Source of the DNA: Subsaxibacter sp. CAU 1640
GTDB lineage: Bacteria > Bacteroidota > Bacteroidia > Flavobacteriales > Flavobacteriaceae
DNA: 64,000 bases
NCBI RefSeq assembly: GCF_023156585.1
Contig: NZ_JALNMI010000006.1
Location: 62,001 to 126,000, forward strand
Direction of reading: 5' to 3'
The position numbers were made by a program, and so were the translations under genes. Shown here one piece after another: positions 18,818 through 40,357 of the stretch (position 1 is the stretch's first letter; each line of letters starts with the position of its first letter). The notes under the pieces were generated by a model. It had not been told where the DNA came from. It did not search any database and saw only the letters and a program-made list of their open reading frames with translations.

Positions 18818-19110
18818 TACTAAAGACTGTACAATTTCATTATGATTTTGCAATTTTATAAATAAACATGCAAGTTATATAACAACTAATGAAAATTGTG
18901 TAAGACGAACCAGTTTAGATTATCGCATCTTTGTAATGGTTGGTTAGTTATAAAAGACCAAATGACACTTATCATTTGGCATATAAAAAAAAGCAGACAT
19001 CTTTGTCTGCTTTTTTTTATGGTTACGTGTCGATATAATTTGTTGATAATGAACTATTGTAAATCACAATCCAAGCAATAGAATTACAAACTTGTTGATT
19101 ATTTCAAAAT
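18818..19110. other. Gene-free stretch after the T9SS gene
   Basis: Together with the attC-like element at 19111-19252 this gives 444 bases without a real gene. Near 18866-18885 'AAGTTATATAACAACT' resembles the module ends found at 21160-21190 and 39317-39350. A stem-loop CCAAATGA/TCATTTGG (18958-18979) precedes the strong terminator at 18985-19018. The small ORF here overlaps that terminator and is not convincing. Confidence 0.6.
18985..19018 (+). terminator. Long perfect terminator hairpin
   Basis: A perfect 15-base stem (18985-18999 with 19004-19018) around the loop TCTT ends in eight T's, and the A run on the other side makes it bidirectional. It lies 168 bases after the stop of the T9SS gene, far for its own terminator, so a separate short RNA may end here. 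Confidence 0.85.
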
Positions 19111-19252
19111 TGCGTACAACGTTTATGTATATGAGCTGTGTCGTGTCTCGGCACGAACCATTAAAAGTACAAAACTCCGCTGGCAAATCCGATAGGATTT
19201 TCCAGATAAGCGATGACCAAGCAATGGTTTATACGCGGTGTTAGCAACTGGT
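19111..19252 (-). repeat. attC-like element after the metalloprotease gene
   Basis: It begins 9 bases past the metalloprotease stop. On the minus strand it starts TTGCTAACACCGCGTATAA and ends with TATACATAAACGTTGTACG. GTATA and TATAC in the two ends are complementary, as in an imperfect stem about 140 bases long. The first part matches the element after the DUF6090 gene (GCCAACAATGTATAACC). It looks like a cassette recombination site, but no covariance search was possible. Confidence 0.45.
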
Positions 19253-19261
19253 ATTTTATTA

Positions 19262-20206
19262 TTAAGTTTTATTCCAATTTAAATAAACATTTGCCACAGA
19301 TGGATGAACTTCTTTATATAACATATCAATAAATTCTTCATCGGTCATCTCTTCCTGATGCTTTTCTAAAGCATTCCAAAGTTTTTTCAATACTATTTCC
19401 CCTCCACTATGATAAATATCTTTTGCGGCTGAATGTAGCATGCATTGGTACCACCCGTAATTTTTAGGTCCCATTCCCAAAGTTGGATACAACTCCTCAA
19501 AGTCTTCTAGACTTGTGAATTTAAACTCTGCCTTACCCATTCCGATTACCATATTTGGAAACGTCTCTAGAGCAGGCAAAAGTTCAGGTTGTTTTTCGGC
19601 TATATAGGTATGCAACATTATGTTCACAAACAATTCGCCCATCCAATAGCGATGCATGTTCAGACCCGCTTGCGATGTATAGGAATGTCCCATTTCGTGA
19701 AGGGCAAGCAAATCAAAGAAGGGCATCATGCTGAACGAACCATCTAGTTTGCCATATGCTGTTGTGACATCTGCGGCTATTGAAGGATGAAGGCTGTCAA
19801 CAGGCGGTAAGAAACTGCGCCAAAAGTCATTGTCTTCAGCTGCAATGACCAATTGCCCGCTTGTTGCATTATGTGGAAATCCATACACCTCACGGAGAGG
19901 TTTGGCAGCAAATTCTTTCCAGTGTTTGGGAGCTAGTATGTACAGTGTCGTTTTGGGTGTAAATCCTATCTCTTTTTGAAAATAAGTGCCTGCGTCCTCC
20001 ATAAACATCGCAATGCTTATGGCTCTTTCTTCATAACCCTGACTGTAATAGAATGTTTGGGTATAGTCCTTTAATTCTTCGAGTGGGAAAGACTCGTTGG
20101 TGGACTTTAACGTGTCTTGTGCAAAAGCAATATTGCAAAGCAAAAGCACTCCTACAATGATGCGAATACTGCGGTGCTTAATGTGATGTTTAGAATGTGT
20201 TGTCAT
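19262..20206 (-). CDS. Exported gluzincin-type metalloprotease-like protein
   Basis: The start is taken at MTTHSKHHIK because a TATCTTTG promoter box lies 12 bases before it, inside the longer frame. The 314-residue protein has a signal peptide (cleavage after 'CNIAFA') and a zinc motif HEMGH at residues 170-174; a later Glu in 'WMGELFVN' could be the third ligand. I do not recognise a named family. It is expected to act in the periplasm or outside. The AraC regulator gene lies directly upstream, and both lie inside an inverted-repeat-bounded module. Confidence 0.8.
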   Translation of the reverse strand: MTTHSKHHIKHRSIRIIVGVLLLCNIAFAQDTLKSTNESFPLEELKDYTQTFYYSQGYEERAISIAMFMEDAGTYFQKEIGFTPKTTLYILAPKHWKEFAAKPLREVYGFPHNATSGQLVIAAEDNDFWRSFLPPVDSLHPSIAADVTTAYGKLDGSFSMMPFFDLLALHEMGHSYTSQAGLNMHRYWMGELFVNIMLHTYIAEKQPELLPALETFPNMVIGMGKAEFKFTSLEDFEELYPTLGMGPKNYGWYQCMLHSAAKDIYHSGGEIVLKKLWNALEKHQEEMTDEEFIDMLYKEVHPSVANVYLNWNKT

Positions 20207-20218
20207 GATTTTTTTTAG

Positions 20219-20226
20219 CAAAGATA
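20219..20226 (-). promoter_or_regulatory. -7 box of the metalloprotease gene
   Basis: The minus strand reads TATCTTTG, a full TAnnTTTG match, 12 bases upstream of the chosen ATG. It supports the shorter start, with a leader of only about 5 bases. Confidence 0.5.
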
Positions 20227-20266
20227 TGTGGCACACCTATCGTTGGCATAGTAAAAAATCGACAAC

Positions 20267-21094
20267 TTAATAGTTCAGGTCTTTTTGCATACGCAAAGGC
20301 GTTGAAAGCAATTGCTGTTCAATAACGGAAGGATTTGCTCCTGCAAAGGTTTTGAAATCCCTTATCATATGCATGTGGTCAAAGTAACCTGCGTCATATG
20401 CTACTTGTGTCCAGTTAAGTTGCGGACAAGATTCGTGCAATCTGTAGGCTTTTGAAAATTTCAGAATGCGTGCAAAGAGCTTTGGATTCATCCCAATCCG
20501 TTCTTTGCATTTTCTTTCAAATTGTTTTAAGCTTAAACAGGAAAACGAGGCCGTTTTTTCGATAGTCATCGTTCCATGATAGCTTAACAGCATACCCAAA
20601 GCGGAATCAATAGGTAAAATTCCTTTAAGGTTTTTAACCTCATTTAAAAGGAATTTTTCTACAATGTTTTTTCCCTCTTCCAGGCTGGGTGTGTTTTGTA
20701 GTTGTTCGTTGATAGACTTCATTTCTCTACCAAAGAAGTCAAGGGCATCAAATCCACCATCGAACAGTTCGTGCATGGGAATGCCCAACATTCGATACAT
20801 ACCACCCGGAAGAAAATCAACGCGTATGGCCGATAATTGACGATGCACTTTTATATTCACACGTGAAAATTGTGGACCTACCAATACCGTAAGTGGTTGT
20901 TTACGAAAATCGCCTTTTTCTACCCTTCCAATAGATACGGCATGATTACAATAAAACATCAGTGATTGAAAAGGCGTAGGAGGATAAGGTGTCACCACAT
21001 CTTTAATTCCTTCAGGAAGTAAGACGTTTACAGTAGATATGTTCAAGACATATTCTTGTAGAGCTGGATGCGGTATATATATCTTTACTTCCAA
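20267..21094 (-). CDS. AraC family regulator with DUF6597-like sensor
   Basis: This 275-residue protein has an N-terminal beta-rich region of the DUF6597 type ('YVLNISTVNVLLPEGIKDVVTPYPPTPFQSLMFY') and a C-terminal AraC helix-turn-helix: 'LNWTQVAYDAGYFDHMHMIRDFKTFAGANPS'. It lies directly upstream of the metalloprotease on the same strand and probably regulates it. Both genes are flanked by GTTAGCAAC/GTTGCTAAC inverted repeats, so the pair may have been acquired together. Confidence 0.9.
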   Translation of the reverse strand: MEVKIYIPHPALQEYVLNISTVNVLLPEGIKDVVTPYPPTPFQSLMFYCNHAVSIGRVEKGDFRKQPLTVLVGPQFSRVNIKVHRQLSAIRVDFLPGGMYRMLGIPMHELFDGGFDALDFFGREMKSINEQLQNTPSLEEGKNIVEKFLLNEVKNLKGILPIDSALGMLLSYHGTMTIEKTASFSCLSLKQFERKCKERIGMNPKLFARILKFSKAYRLHESCPQLNWTQVAYDAGYFDHMHMIRDFKTFAGANPSVIEQQLLSTPLRMQKDLNY

Positions 21095-21159
21095 ATATAC
21101 GCGTCTTAAATTTTAACAATATCCCTAACGATTTTTCGTGTTCAAATTGATGTTGTATG

Positions 21160-21190
21160 ATTTGCTTGTTGCTAACTTGTTATATGTGGA
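21160..21190. repeat. Right end of module 1 (GTTGCTAAC and AACTTGTTATAT)
   Basis: GTTGCTAAC at 21168-21176 is the exact inverse of GTTAGCAAC at 19240-19248. The following AACTTGTTATATGTGG nearly matches AACTTGTTATATCTGC upstream of the DUF6090 gene (39333 region). The site sits between the AraC gene and the integrase remnant. Confidence 0.5.
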
Positions 21191-21204
21191 ATAAATATAC
21201 ACAT

Positions 21205-21425
21205 TTACCCCATAATTTCACCGGATATATGCACCTTTTGTGCCTCATTATCAATTTTTTTTAATTTCTCTATCGCCTGGTCTAATTGCTTCTTATCACT
21301 ACCTAATCTTTTCTTGTTACATGGGTATAGATCATGGTGGTTTCTGGCCGTGCATGGCCCAATAAGCTTTGTAAAAAGTGCAGGGCCTACATCATTTTCA
21401 AGTAAATGTGTGGCATGGCTCTAGC
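21205..21425 (-). pseudogene. Decayed C-terminus of a tyrosine recombinase
   Basis: Translation in two frames recovers the conserved end of a phage-type integrase/XerD-like recombinase: ATHLLENDVG in one frame, then LHFLQSLLGHARPETTMIYTHV in the other, including the box 2 His and the catalytic Tyr in IYTHV. It then continues 'LGSDKKQLDQAIEKLKKIDNEAQ' in the first frame to a stop. At least two frameshifts break the frame, and the N-terminal three quarters are missing. It is a relic of a site-specific recombinase next to the module end at 21160-21190. Confidence 0.85.
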
Positions 21426-21939: not shown

Positions 21940-22674
21940 ATGTCTAAAAAGAAACGTGTCTATCAGGAAACAGGCCACGCCGTAAACCTTGACAATTTCG
22001 GTCTGCAAATTAGTTTTGTTCGCAACTATGGCGCTCCGTATAATCCAGCTGCCATTAGGCTTACGCTTAACGCTCTCGAGAATTTTTTTGAAGATGCCAA
22101 GGCAGCCCTAGAAATGGTAACTGCCAAGGTCGGGGCATTTAAGAATGTAGCAGGGGAACGCCAGTTGGCATTTTTGGCTCTTGAGCCACTCACCACGCGG
22201 CTTATGGGTTTGATGCAAGCGCTAGGGGCCAGCACGGCAATGCTCGAAGATGCTCGGTTTTATAAACGCAAGCTAGAGGGGCGGCGTGCCAAAGCCATCG
22301 ACCCAAACAGTTCACAAAAAGCCATCAGTGCTTGCCAGCGTTCGTATGGCAACAGATATTTTCATTTCCAAGGCTTCCTGGGAGTCTTAAAGAGTCTGGA
22401 AGGCTATGCATCCAACGAAGCCGATTTGACCATTGAGGCACTTGAGACTAGGCTAGAGGAGTTGCTTGCCTATAATGCGGCTGTAGATACTGCCAATGCC
22501 GAGTTAAAGTTGGCGCGCGTCAACCGAAATAAGGTTTTTTACGCACCTGTCACGGGCATGCTTTCGCTTGCAGCCGATGTCAAAGCCTATACTAAAGCCG
22601 TCTTTGGGTTCAGCAGCGGCTTTTATCAGGCTATGCATGGCATACGCTTTACGAGGATTGTTAGGAAGTTGTAG
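21940..22674 (+). CDS. Helical protein of unknown function, GC-richer
   Basis: This 244-residue protein has no signal peptide or membrane segment and is largely helical, rich in Ala, Leu, Lys and Arg ('YKRKLEGRRAKAIDP', 'LEALETRLEELLAYN'). I do not recognise a family. Its codons are visibly richer in G and C than the flanking genes. It stands alone: a small membrane protein diverges upstream, and 748 gene-free bases follow. With the nearby recombinase relic this suggests acquisition by transfer. Confidence 0.7.
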   Translation: MSKKKRVYQETGHAVNLDNFGLQISFVRNYGAPYNPAAIRLTLNALENFFEDAKAALEMVTAKVGAFKNVAGERQLAFLALEPLTTRLMGLMQALGASTAMLEDARFYKRKLEGRRAKAIDPNSSQKAISACQRSYGNRYFHFQGFLGVLKSLEGYASNEADLTIEALETRLEELLAYNAAVDTANAELKLARVNRNKVFYAPVTGMLSLAADVKAYTKAVFGFSSGFYQAMHGIRFTRIVRKL

Positions 22675-38464: not shown

Positions 38465-38519
38465 CGACCCGAGCATAGCATCTGGCAAAGCAAATTGCGG
38501 TTATACATTGTTGGCATTT
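38465..38519 (-). repeat. Left end of module 2 (GCCAACAATGTATAACC)
   Basis: Starting 2 bases past the DUF6090 stop region, the minus strand reads GCCAACAATGTATAACCGC, which matches GCTAACACCGCGTATAAACC after the metalloprotease gene in its conserved bases. It then runs into 'AATTTGCTTTGCC'. Confidence 0.45.
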
Positions 38520-38521
38520 CG

Positions 38522-39304
38522 TTATTTTTTCTCAAGTTCTTTATTAACTATATCAATAATTTTCAAAATTTCTTTTCTAATAGAATAATCTTGCGAAATA
38601 ACATAATCATTATTGTGTTTGTGATGCCAAATTACATTTTCCATTTTCATAAGATTGATTTCATTGTAATCTGGTTTAAAATTTGAATAGGATTTATAGT
38701 TATTAATATATTTCTCATTTAAGCCATTAATGTTTTTCTTATATATGTCTCCGTTTGATAGAGGAAAATATTCTGTAAGAAACGGTATAAGACTTTCATT
38801 ATAATTTACAAACCTAAATTCAACGTCTTCTTCGATGTCATTCAGTTTTCCAGTCCACCCTGTAATTCTATCACGAATTATTTTACTTTTTATAAGTTCA
38901 AGTTTTCCTGAATTTAAAATTTCATCTGTAACACCAGTATTTGCATCAAATGATGAAACGAGTAACATTCGCAGAATAAGGCTGTCGACAATTTTTGTTT
39001 TTTCCTCCAATTCATCAGAACGGATAATTTGAGTAAGTAATGCGCAGGCTTGACTTACATTTTTATTTGCTTGTATTGTGCTGTCAATTGTTATAAGATT
39101 ATTTTGAAATTCGCTTTTTAATCCAATTAAGATTGCTCTTTCAGAATTGCTTGCTTTTTTATTTTCATTCCAGTTGTTGATTTGTAATGCAATCAAAATT
39201 CCAATTACCACAAGAATTATTTCTCCAATCGCATAAATCAGGTACTTACTGAATTTGTTTTCAGCGAGAAGGTTTTGCCTAATTTTTCTAAAGAATTTTA
39301 TCAT
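38522..39304 (-). CDS. DUF6090 family membrane-anchored protein
   Basis: This 260-residue protein has the DUF6090 N-terminus: 'MIKFFRKIRQNLLAENKFSKYLIYAIGEIILVVIGILIALQINNWNENK', with one membrane helix, then a long helical extracytoplasmic part. Many paralogues occur in flavobacteria; the role is unknown. It is flanked by sequences that match the ends of the metalloprotease module, so it may be a separate mobile cassette. Confidence 0.88.
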   Translation of the reverse strand: MIKFFRKIRQNLLAENKFSKYLIYAIGEIILVVIGILIALQINNWNENKKASNSERAILIGLKSEFQNNLITIDSTIQANKNVSQACALLTQIIRSDELEEKTKIVDSLILRMLLVSSFDANTGVTDEILNSGKLELIKSKIIRDRITGWTGKLNDIEEDVEFRFVNYNESLIPFLTEYFPLSNGDIYKKNINGLNEKYINNYKSYSNFKPDYNEINLMKMENVIWHHKHNNDYVISQDYSIRKEILKIIDIVNKELEKK

Positions 39305-39316
39305 TGGTTAGCGGTT

Positions 39317-39350
39317 GGTTATAATGATGCACAACTTGTTATATCTGCAC
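39317..39350. repeat. Right end of module 2 (AACTTGTTATAT)
   Basis: AACTTGTTATATCTGC, upstream of the DUF6090 gene, differs from AACTTGTTATATGTGG at 21175-21190 at only two positions. Confidence 0.45.
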
Positions 39351-39359
39351 TAAAATAAT

Positions 39360-39582
39360 GTTTTTTACCTCTTATTGGCGGGATATCTGCACTTTTATTG
39401 GCTCTTTTCCCTTTTTTGTTATTGGCCCATTTACTTGCTAAAAACCTTAAATCTCCACACATTGTCTACCCATCACCCCACCATCCTTCGGTAAACGACC
39501 CATCTAAACCATATACACCCAACCCTTACCCGAACAACACCCGAACAAAACTGCAACAAAACCCCCTAAAAATCGCTCAAAA
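39360..39582. other. Gene-free part of the region before DUF6266
   Basis: This stretch is rich in short C/A runs (ACCCAACCCTTACCCGAAC) and contains no convincing gene; the frame at 39398-39592 has no protein-like pattern. The stretch from 39305 to 39715 has no gene apart from the module end and the 10-base repeat. Confidence 0.55.
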
Positions 39583-39639
39583 GGGACAATAGGTGACAAT
39601 TAGGGACAATTAGGGACAAAAAGGGGCAGTTAGGGACAC
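39583..39639. repeat. 10-base tandem repeat GGGACAATTA upstream of DUF6266
   Basis: Five full units of 10 bases (GGGACAATAG, GTGACAATTA, GGGACAATTA, GGGACAAAAA, GGGGCAGTTA) and a partial GGGACAC stand in register, 76 bases before the DUF6266 start. Confidence 0.95.
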
Positions 39640-39715
39640 TCTCTTGCGCATTGAAAAACAGTCGTCTACATTCGCTGAAAATCAAAAAAATATTAACTTT
39701 TTAAATCTTAAAATT

Positions 39716-40357
39716 ATGGCAACATTTGAAAAAGGGATCCTTGGAGGATTTTCAGGCAAAGTAGGTAATGTGGTAGGTGCACGCTGGCGTGGCAAAGACA
39801 TCATGCGCAGCTTGCCACAGCGTGGCAGCTATGTGCCTACACCGGCACAGCTAGACCAGCGCATGCGTTTTGCGCTGGTGGCACACTTTCTGTATTGGCT
39901 AAAACCCATTGTGGGCAAATACTTTGGCAAAAAACAGGGTGACAAATCGGTGTATAACTTGGCTACGGGCTATCATCTCAAAGAGGCCATCACTGTGGTG
40001 AACAATACCTATGAGATGGATTATGAAAAGGTGCTCATCAGCAAGGGCGAACTGCGTGGTCTGGTAGACGTTACTGCTACGGCTGCTGCTGACCAGGTGA
40101 TACAACTGGCATGGACAGACAATAGTGGGCAAGGCTATGCCTCTGAAGAAGACCAACTGTGGGTGGCTACCTATGCGCCAGATACTGATTTGTACCAACT
40201 GTTTGAAGACGCTGCCAAACGCAATGATAGGGGTGCCGACCTGCAGATGCCTGCCTATTTTTCGGGTCAGGTGGTGCATGTTTGGGCCACATTTATTGCC
40301 AGTAATGGCAAGGATGCTGCCACCAGTAGCTATCTGGGTGTAGTGACCGTTAGTTAA
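39716..40357 (+). CDS. DUF6266 family protein
   Basis: The start is taken at MATFEKGILGGFSGKVGNVV, the family's typical N-terminus. A longer frame exists upstream but runs through leader sequence. The 213-residue protein has the DUF6266 pattern ('WRGKDIMRSLPQRG', 'QRMRFALVAHFL', then a beta-rich second half with 'YFSGQVVHVWATF'). The function is unknown. The gene is visibly GC-rich compared with its neighbours, suggesting transfer, and sits between a 10-base tandem repeat and a strong terminator. Confidence 0.85.
   Translation: MATFEKGILGGFSGKVGNVVGARWRGKDIMRSLPQRGSYVPTPAQLDQRMRFALVAHFLYWLKPIVGKYFGKKQGDKSVYNLATGYHLKEAITVVNNTYEMDYEKVLISKGELRGLVDVTATAAADQVIQLAWTDNSGQGYASEEDQLWVATYAPDTDLYQLFEDAAKRNDRGADLQMPAYFSGQVVHVWATFIASNGKDAATSSYLGVVTVS

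Follow-up and report, generated by a model that had tools for sequence, protein, structure and literature searches.

In chromosomal (sedentary) integrons, or superintegrons, a recombinase and an attI site are followed by long arrays of mostly unknown genes in one orientation, each gene has an attC hairpin that folds from the bottom strand, and insertion takes place at GTT. GTTRRRY is the consensus used for integron comparison, and XerA serves chromosome dimer resolution at dif. A published survey calls the IntI-specific insertion essential for integron function (PMC8138268), attC clusters without an integrase are termed CALINs (PMC9024848), and two reviews count Bacteroidota among the integron-bearing phyla (PMC8618304, PMC9668308). 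Here, we analysed a stretch of 64,000 nucleotides (hereafter the window) of Subsaxibacter sp. CAU 1640. With a probability of about 0.88, two gene modules in it, modules 1 and 2, each represent the first cassette of a decayed platform, belonging to an integron-like system of Flavobacteriaceae that would collect cassettes at attI-like sites. The flavobacterial system resembles chromosomal integrons in each of the respects listed above. Unlike IntI integrons, it has a recombinase without the IntI-specific insertion and with an extra N-terminal domain, its attI overlaps the 3' end of the recombinase gene, its cassette-end hexamers vary freely in a barcode-like manner, and several attI sites without a recombinase can occur per genome. 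No description of such a system was found in the literature searched (open-licence papers, no preprints), and it is apparently unrecognised so far although very widespread in flavobacteria.

Modules 1 and 2 contain unrelated genes, lie 18 kb apart and are similar in sequence both upstream and downstream, as the original prediction had stated. The short motif AACTTGTTATATNTG was not significant by itself, giving 2 matches with up to two mismatches versus 1.55 expected for this 15-nt motif. Elsewhere in the window, the full 64-nt element upstream of module 2 was matched best by the module 1 site, with 44 of 64 matches and one insertion, compared with 38 at the next place, at most 38 off target for 60 random 64-mers, and 36 in the reversed window. 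Chance similarity together with common intergenic repeats would suffice for the 15-nt motif, but is negligible as an explanation given the covariation, the hexamer matching and the breakpoints reported below. An Rfam scan of the window returned nothing at gathering scores. The features of the two modules are listed below, where R1 and R2 are models of the attI-like and attC-like sites, respectively.

39333..39396, minus strand: attI-like docking site of module 2, with two direct repeats GTGCAGATAT and the core ATATAACAA-GTT (R1 69.1 bits, as a training member of the model; alignments)
39372..39422, minus strand: last 16 codons and stop of a lost recombinase gene (ITKKGKEPIKVQISRQ, then stop), overlapping attI (by eye against recombinase C-termini)
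38522..39304, minus strand: module 2 cargo, a DUF6090 protein of 260 aa (PF19578, 35.9 bits, E 8.8e-9)
38510..39335, minus strand: module 2 cassette, from GTT to an R''-like end (GTTGTGCAT ... AATGCCAAC; from the sequence)
38465..38518, minus strand: truncated attC-like site of module 2, left half only (AACAATGTATAACCGCAATT...; against complete relatives)
21174..21238, minus strand: attI-like docking site of module 1 (R1 56.9 bits, training member)
21205..21420, minus strand: degraded, frameshifted tyrosine recombinase C-terminus that ends inside attI (three-frame translation)
19121..21176, minus strand: module 1 cassette (GTTAGCAAC ... GTTGCTAAC, ends complementary at 9/9), with attC up to the next GTT
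20267..21094, minus strand: module 1 cargo, an AraC-type regulator with a DUF6597 domain (Pfam)
19262..20236, minus strand: module 1 cargo, a 324-aa protein with the HExxH-type motif HEMGH (by eye, from the sequence)
19112..19248, minus strand: complete attC-like site of module 1 (R2 56.9 bits, E 2.7e-12)
19104..19120, minus strand: start of a lost second cassette of module 1 (GTTGTACGCAATTTTGA), resembling cassette starts elsewhere

Downstream, the two modules end in different subtypes of a single attC-like site. The module 1 cassette is complete, with an intact attC that was recovered by R2, a model trained on other genomes, and module 2 is a decayed cassette with a damaged copy that R2 did not find. 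The module 2 ends GTTGTGCAT and AATGCCAAC are complementary, by eye, only with a one-base gap; its end 9-mer had no 9/9 partner, and the sole 8/9 partner lies 3,837 nt off without an attC motif. Beside module 1, a TIGR02249 fragment with one stop (E 5.5e-4) was found at C6:83288-83383, that is, window 21288-21383. The 324-aa protein of module 1, a putative metalloprotease, had no Pfam match at E ≤ 0.001. Window 21940-22674 encodes a protein of ~245 aa whose family has no Pfam match; by eye, members of this family seem to precede several attI sites (module 1, C4:62k, C5:238k, and C4:379k); C4:62k and C4:379k have 989 bp upstream of attI in common at 74%. A DUF6266 gene (window 39644-40357) adjoins the attI of module 2, with four AGGGACAATT-like repeats of ~10 nt just upstream of the gene (window 39582-39638).

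The upstream end proved to be an attI-like element of ~65 nt that contains a pair of direct repeats and ends in GTT. The genome has six exact copies of ATATAACAAGTT, and five of them lie within such an element. R1, a model made from five genome sites, found six more (E 6.9e-11, 3.1e-4, 6.9e-4, 0.023, 0.25, and 0.97), and two other weak matches (E 0.28 and 0.66) were judged to be non-sites. A broader model, R3, whose 30 training sites included 10 of the genome's own 11, gave these 11 at E ≤ 0.01. The upstream end is one of a family of sites in the genome. Elsewhere, R3 found 18 sites in G097, a congener, as well as 15 in G144 and 0 to 5 in each of seven further genomes that we chose, and R1 matched in 12 of 148 other sampled genomes of the family. 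The original reading needs correcting in one respect: the upstream element is a docking site outside the mobile unit and no part of it, and the mobile unit extends from GTT to attC. Its direct repeats matched each other within a site at 3.07 of 5 positions versus 2.31 after permutation (0 of 5000 permutations) in 29 of the 30 sites (the thirtieth being L023), a match that may be partly due to relatedness. A script pattern located the attI core at 10 of 24 R1 loci. At three of those 10 a recombinase frame runs into the element (full-length in L039 and L040, shorter in L052). In the Subsaxibacter genome, several attI copies besides those of modules 1 and 2 seem, by eye, to retain the final recombinase codons. 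Dispersed copies in this genome mostly have 67-95 nt upstream of GTT in common, some pairs less and array duplicates more; we know of nothing in integron biology that explains dispersed attI copies without a recombinase. The element also carries a TATATTTG-like stretch that resembles a -7 promoter motif, and no -33 motif was seen in it at the usual spacing. GTATAAMC was dropped as a site motif, being rarer genome-wide than in the reversed control (212 versus 479). At L028 (C4:362001-382000), three attI sites lie in one array with cassettes after each, and they have about 150-250 nt upstream in common, including an apparent terminator hairpin.

A search of named genomes (Zunongwangia, Winogradskyella, Mesonia, Mangrovimonas, Xanthomarina, and others) with an alignment of two full recombinases (L039 and L040) yielded 25 loci. 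In all 25, the attI-like site lies at the 3' end of a gene for a ~400-aa tyrosine recombinase, which at L072 contains one stop and was therefore left out of the protein alignment. The integron arrangement of an attI that adjoins the integrase gene and receives the cassettes is thus present in 25 of 25 loci, with only gene remnants in the Subsaxibacter genome. Cassettes in head-to-tail order, each consisting of a gene and an attC as in integrons, followed attI at 17 of the 20 loci whose sequence was long enough, and tracing behind attI gave none at L072, L074, and L076. The cassette tests exclude the other five loci (L057 and L063-L066), whose contigs end 18-121 nt past GTT; contigs would be expected to end at such places if repetitive cassette arrays interrupt assembly. 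Closely related platforms have the chromosome, the recombinase and attI in common, their homology ends at or near GTT, and the first cassette differs. For example, two Mesonia are 92.0% identical over 7,856 bp with the end of homology at +11 from GTT, and two Zunongwangia are 84.4% identical over 3,474 bp with the end at +7. Winogradskyella pairs mostly end at +4 to +22, with little power for L063, L064, and L066, whose contigs stop 18-77 nt past GTT. More distant pairs lose similarity inside attI or the gene, or continue to +58 through similar cassette starts.

A cassette starts with GTT and six variable bases, whose reverse complement stands at its end, and then comes the attC site, which behind attI is mostly 115-125 nt long, with a few up to 186 nt. 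Extraction was limited to a length of 110-125 nt and an L box of at least 6, which gave 62 sites, and 38 of these were aligned for the model. Across the 38 sites and 17 proposed pairs, 93.8% of cells were paired, two-sided changes numbered 87 versus 23.4 in shuffled alignments, and the covariation score was 0.373 versus 0.091 shuffled and at most 0.058 slid. The AAC/GTT pairs are invariant and hence uninformative for covariation, so the support comes from the L box and the stem. When folded as single-stranded DNA, the bottom strand was the more stable one in 61 of 62 sites (mean -25.6 versus -21.7 kcal/mol; -12.7 for dinucleotide shuffles). Shuffles favoured the bottom strand as well (71%), by 1.0 kcal/mol versus 3.9 for the real sites. 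By these folding energies the sites agree with integron attC, that is, imperfect inverted repeats with R and L boxes and a favoured bottom strand.

R2, which was built from loci L055-L079 and leaves the hexamers unpaired, found 88 sites at E ≤ 1e-4 in genome G068, all on one strand of an 80-kb stretch starting with the recombinase and attI; 87 form one run and one lies 6 kb further. The hexamers at the 5' and 3' ends of the cassettes were complementary at 6/6 in 77 of the 88, at 5/6 in 10, and at 3/6 in one, compared with 6/6 in 2 of 88 within one attC and 1.9% for mismatched pairs. Similarly, among the first cassettes of 20 named loci, the own 9-mer recurred exactly downstream in 16 versus 9 of 372 for those of other loci, and with a strict attC motif behind it in 10 of 20 versus 4 of 372. 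One of the 16, at L062, matched off the likely cassette end, which itself matches at 8/9. Matching ends of both kinds are what integron-type excision as a circle predicts. Among 156 cassettes compared, G068 and Winogradskyella sediminis have one in common together with its hexamer, at 87.7% across the cassette, another pair from G068 and Winogradskyella pelagia agreed at 74.6%, and several G068 cassettes recur within their own array. Transposon-like elements of the IS or MITE type, with terminal repeats as the like ends, would account for repeated ends around unrelated genes and for the dispersal of the attI-like site itself. They are very unlikely here, because each module has a different site at either end, the terminal complementarity is specific to each cassette, and the cassettes stand head to tail on one strand. 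The shared mobilisation first suspected from the like ends is supported and can be specified as integron-type cassette recombination at attI- and attC-like sites.

The Subsaxibacter genome contains 32 attC matches at E ≤ 0.01. The ends are not found equally often away from genes, which would have spoken against mobilisation: 24 of the 32 attC matches are clustered behind attI sites, at most about 7 kb away, and a cassette with matched ends lies behind nine of the 11 attI-like sites (eight at 9/9 and one at 8/9), while module 2 and C5_267k showed no matching cassette ends in the 9-nt test. The other eight attC matches, without a preceding attI match, form clusters at C2:177-179 kb and C4:218-221 kb. 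No match to the recombinase of the system at E ≤ 1e-50 and no TIGR02249 match over the cut-off was found in this genome, which encodes two Xer-like proteins (one XerC-like and one XerD-like) and a further tyrosine recombinase frame at C4:499510 (23 bits to TIGR02249). It resembles a CALIN in having attC clusters without an integrase, and differs in that most of its small arrays keep an attI-like site of their own. Given 11 attI sites, nine with at least one cassette, and no intact recombinase of the family found, the platforms may be relics or may be served by a recombinase from outside, supply in trans being our guess. The XerC-like and XerD-like genes, in a genome without a special recombinase, raise the idea of Xer/dif-type modules moved by the housekeeping enzymes. 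We regard this as improbable, since the sites are ~120-nt hairpins together with a ~65-nt attI that overlaps a dedicated recombinase gene in 25 of 25 loci.

The recombinase has a tyrosine recombinase core (Pfam) and is close to XerA and IntI4. In a ranking of PDB sequences, XerA (5hxy) was best for the catalytic part and IntI4 (2a3v) third-best; both were among the top rows of a full-length structure search with a predicted model of pTM only 0.47. XerA is thus the best match in sequence and fold for the catalytic part (NCBIfam NF040815), and differs from the flavobacterial clade, which has an N-terminal domain and cassette arrays. With IntI4 the L055 recombinase shares the core in two aligned blocks, spaced by 20 residues versus 63, IntI4 being 43 residues longer there; from this spacing we infer that the IntI insertion is missing. 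None of 12 recombinases exceeded the cut-off of the TIGR02249 IntI model (179-214 bits versus 265), and six of the 12 passed that of NF040815. The extra N-terminal domain has a confidently predicted fold (pLDDT 87.4), and the N-termini of five recombinases matched no Pfam family above its cut-off. Its closest resemblance was to the N-terminal part of XPB, over 62 residues with Z 7.3 and an rmsd of 2.2, in a tie with aIF1/eIF1; such a Z may reflect a common arrangement only. Foldseek placed the HARP domain of SMARCAL1 first with a weak E of 0.11. The idea of a HARP-like domain found weak structural support, and a link of the predicted domain to DNA-structure reading is a suggestion. In a plasmid search, 7 of 496 matching records covered 80% of the recombinase, and all records were below 60% identity. 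Two other observations concern relatives: G192:C44 encodes a ~280-aa relative with the catalytic part only, on the opposite strand and 6.7 kb from attC matches, which is nearer the classical integron layout, and G100 has eight near-equal matches to ~304-aa tyrosine recombinase frames that look like an insertion-sequence family.

These proteins bear on whether the arrays could be ordinary canonical integrons or CALINs with a merely divergent IntI. The parts are the same (recombinase, attI, cassettes, and attC hairpins with bottom-strand preference), NF040815, which half of the recombinases pass, is named 'site-specific tyrosine recombinase/integron integrase', and the phylum is among those the reviews list for integrons. 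Nevertheless, all 12 recombinases fall under the IntI cut-off and the L055 protein has 20 residues where IntI4 has 63, the five scanned N-termini belong to no Pfam family although the domain folds confidently, attI lies at the 3' end of the gene, and many hexamers deviate from GTTRRRY. We consider a merely divergent IntI doubtful, if still conceivable. On structural tests the system appears integron-like, yet outside the canonical IntI definition because its recombinase would lack the IntI insertion and scores below the IntI cut-off. Most surprising is that the insertion would be missing in a system with such long arrays.

In G068, 76 cassettes have an ORF of at least 40 aa, 11 have none, and one was over the length limit. 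The longest ORF is on the attC strand in 73 of the 76, the ORF fills a median of 91% of the cassette, and the ATG lies a median of 28 nt past GTT. The family scan covered 73 of the 76 proteins, those within one fetched stretch, and gave 39 Pfam families, including KAP NTPase, Imm7, and ParE; of the best 25 of these 39 families, three occur in two members and the rest in one. Furthermore, 17 PADLOC models were matched (e.g., PD-T4-1, PifA, and QatA), and the cargo likely includes phage-defence and toxin/immunity genes. DUF6090 is present in 32 of 60 genomes of the family. That other DUF6090 genes would have the same ends held for five of 27 loci, with an attC just downstream on the same strand (one weak), and not for most; a sixth locus has only a weak match 1.1 kb upstream. 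DUF6090 genes are only sometimes cassette-borne. The second DUF6090 match in the Subsaxibacter genome (C4:372866-373039) lies between two attC sites. Three genomes, G024, G025, and G037, have 28 to 38 DUF6090 matches each.

At E ≤ 1e-6, attC sites were found in 132 of 149 sampled Flavobacteriaceae genomes, Subsaxibacter included, and in 117 of 125 good ones; per-genome numbers from 22 up are lower bounds (at least 22). Twelve of the 17 negative genomes are smaller than 2 Mb. The recombinase profile matched in 103 of the 149 genomes at E ≤ 1e-50, a count that includes distant XerA-like proteins, and 37 reach 1e-130. Across 345 genomes of the phylum, attC at E ≤ 1e-8 occurred in 74 (22 from the family, 10 from the rest of the class, and 42 from the rest of the phylum) and the recombinase at E ≤ 1e-80 in 64.

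Based on these comparisons, the following mechanism seems most plausible for the integron-like system. A tyrosine recombinase would be encoded directly upstream of attI in cassette orientation, with its last codons inside attI, as seen in the relatives. A cassette would consist of a gene and an attC, with a 5' GTT-hexamer and a 3' hexamer-AAC that are mutually complementary and cassette-specific, as the ends indicate, and would close into a circle that regenerates one attC. The attC bottom strand is predicted to form a hairpin with an R stem, an asymmetric spacer, a covarying 6-bp L box and a long stem, which the recombinase would join with attI at GTT. New cassettes would then enter at position 1 in one orientation, in line with the breakpoints and the uniform orientation. 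In the Subsaxibacter genome, this process would have left relics or would draw on a recombinase from outside.

From sequence comparison, the system is best filed as a widespread variant of the integron kind. A further-reaching proposal, to which we give even odds, is a second integron lineage in Bacteroidota, near-universal in Flavobacteriaceae and reaching other families, that would recombine hairpin attC without the IntI insertion. Its N-terminal domain, resembling DNA-damage or fork recognition domains, may read DNA structure, each cassette would have a hexamer barcode of its own, and multiplied attI sites would provide many small parallel platforms. If functional, the system would equip a large bacterial group with its own gene-capture machine, which searches relying on canonical IntI may miss, and its recombinase would allow a natural test of what in IntI is needed to recombine hairpin DNA.
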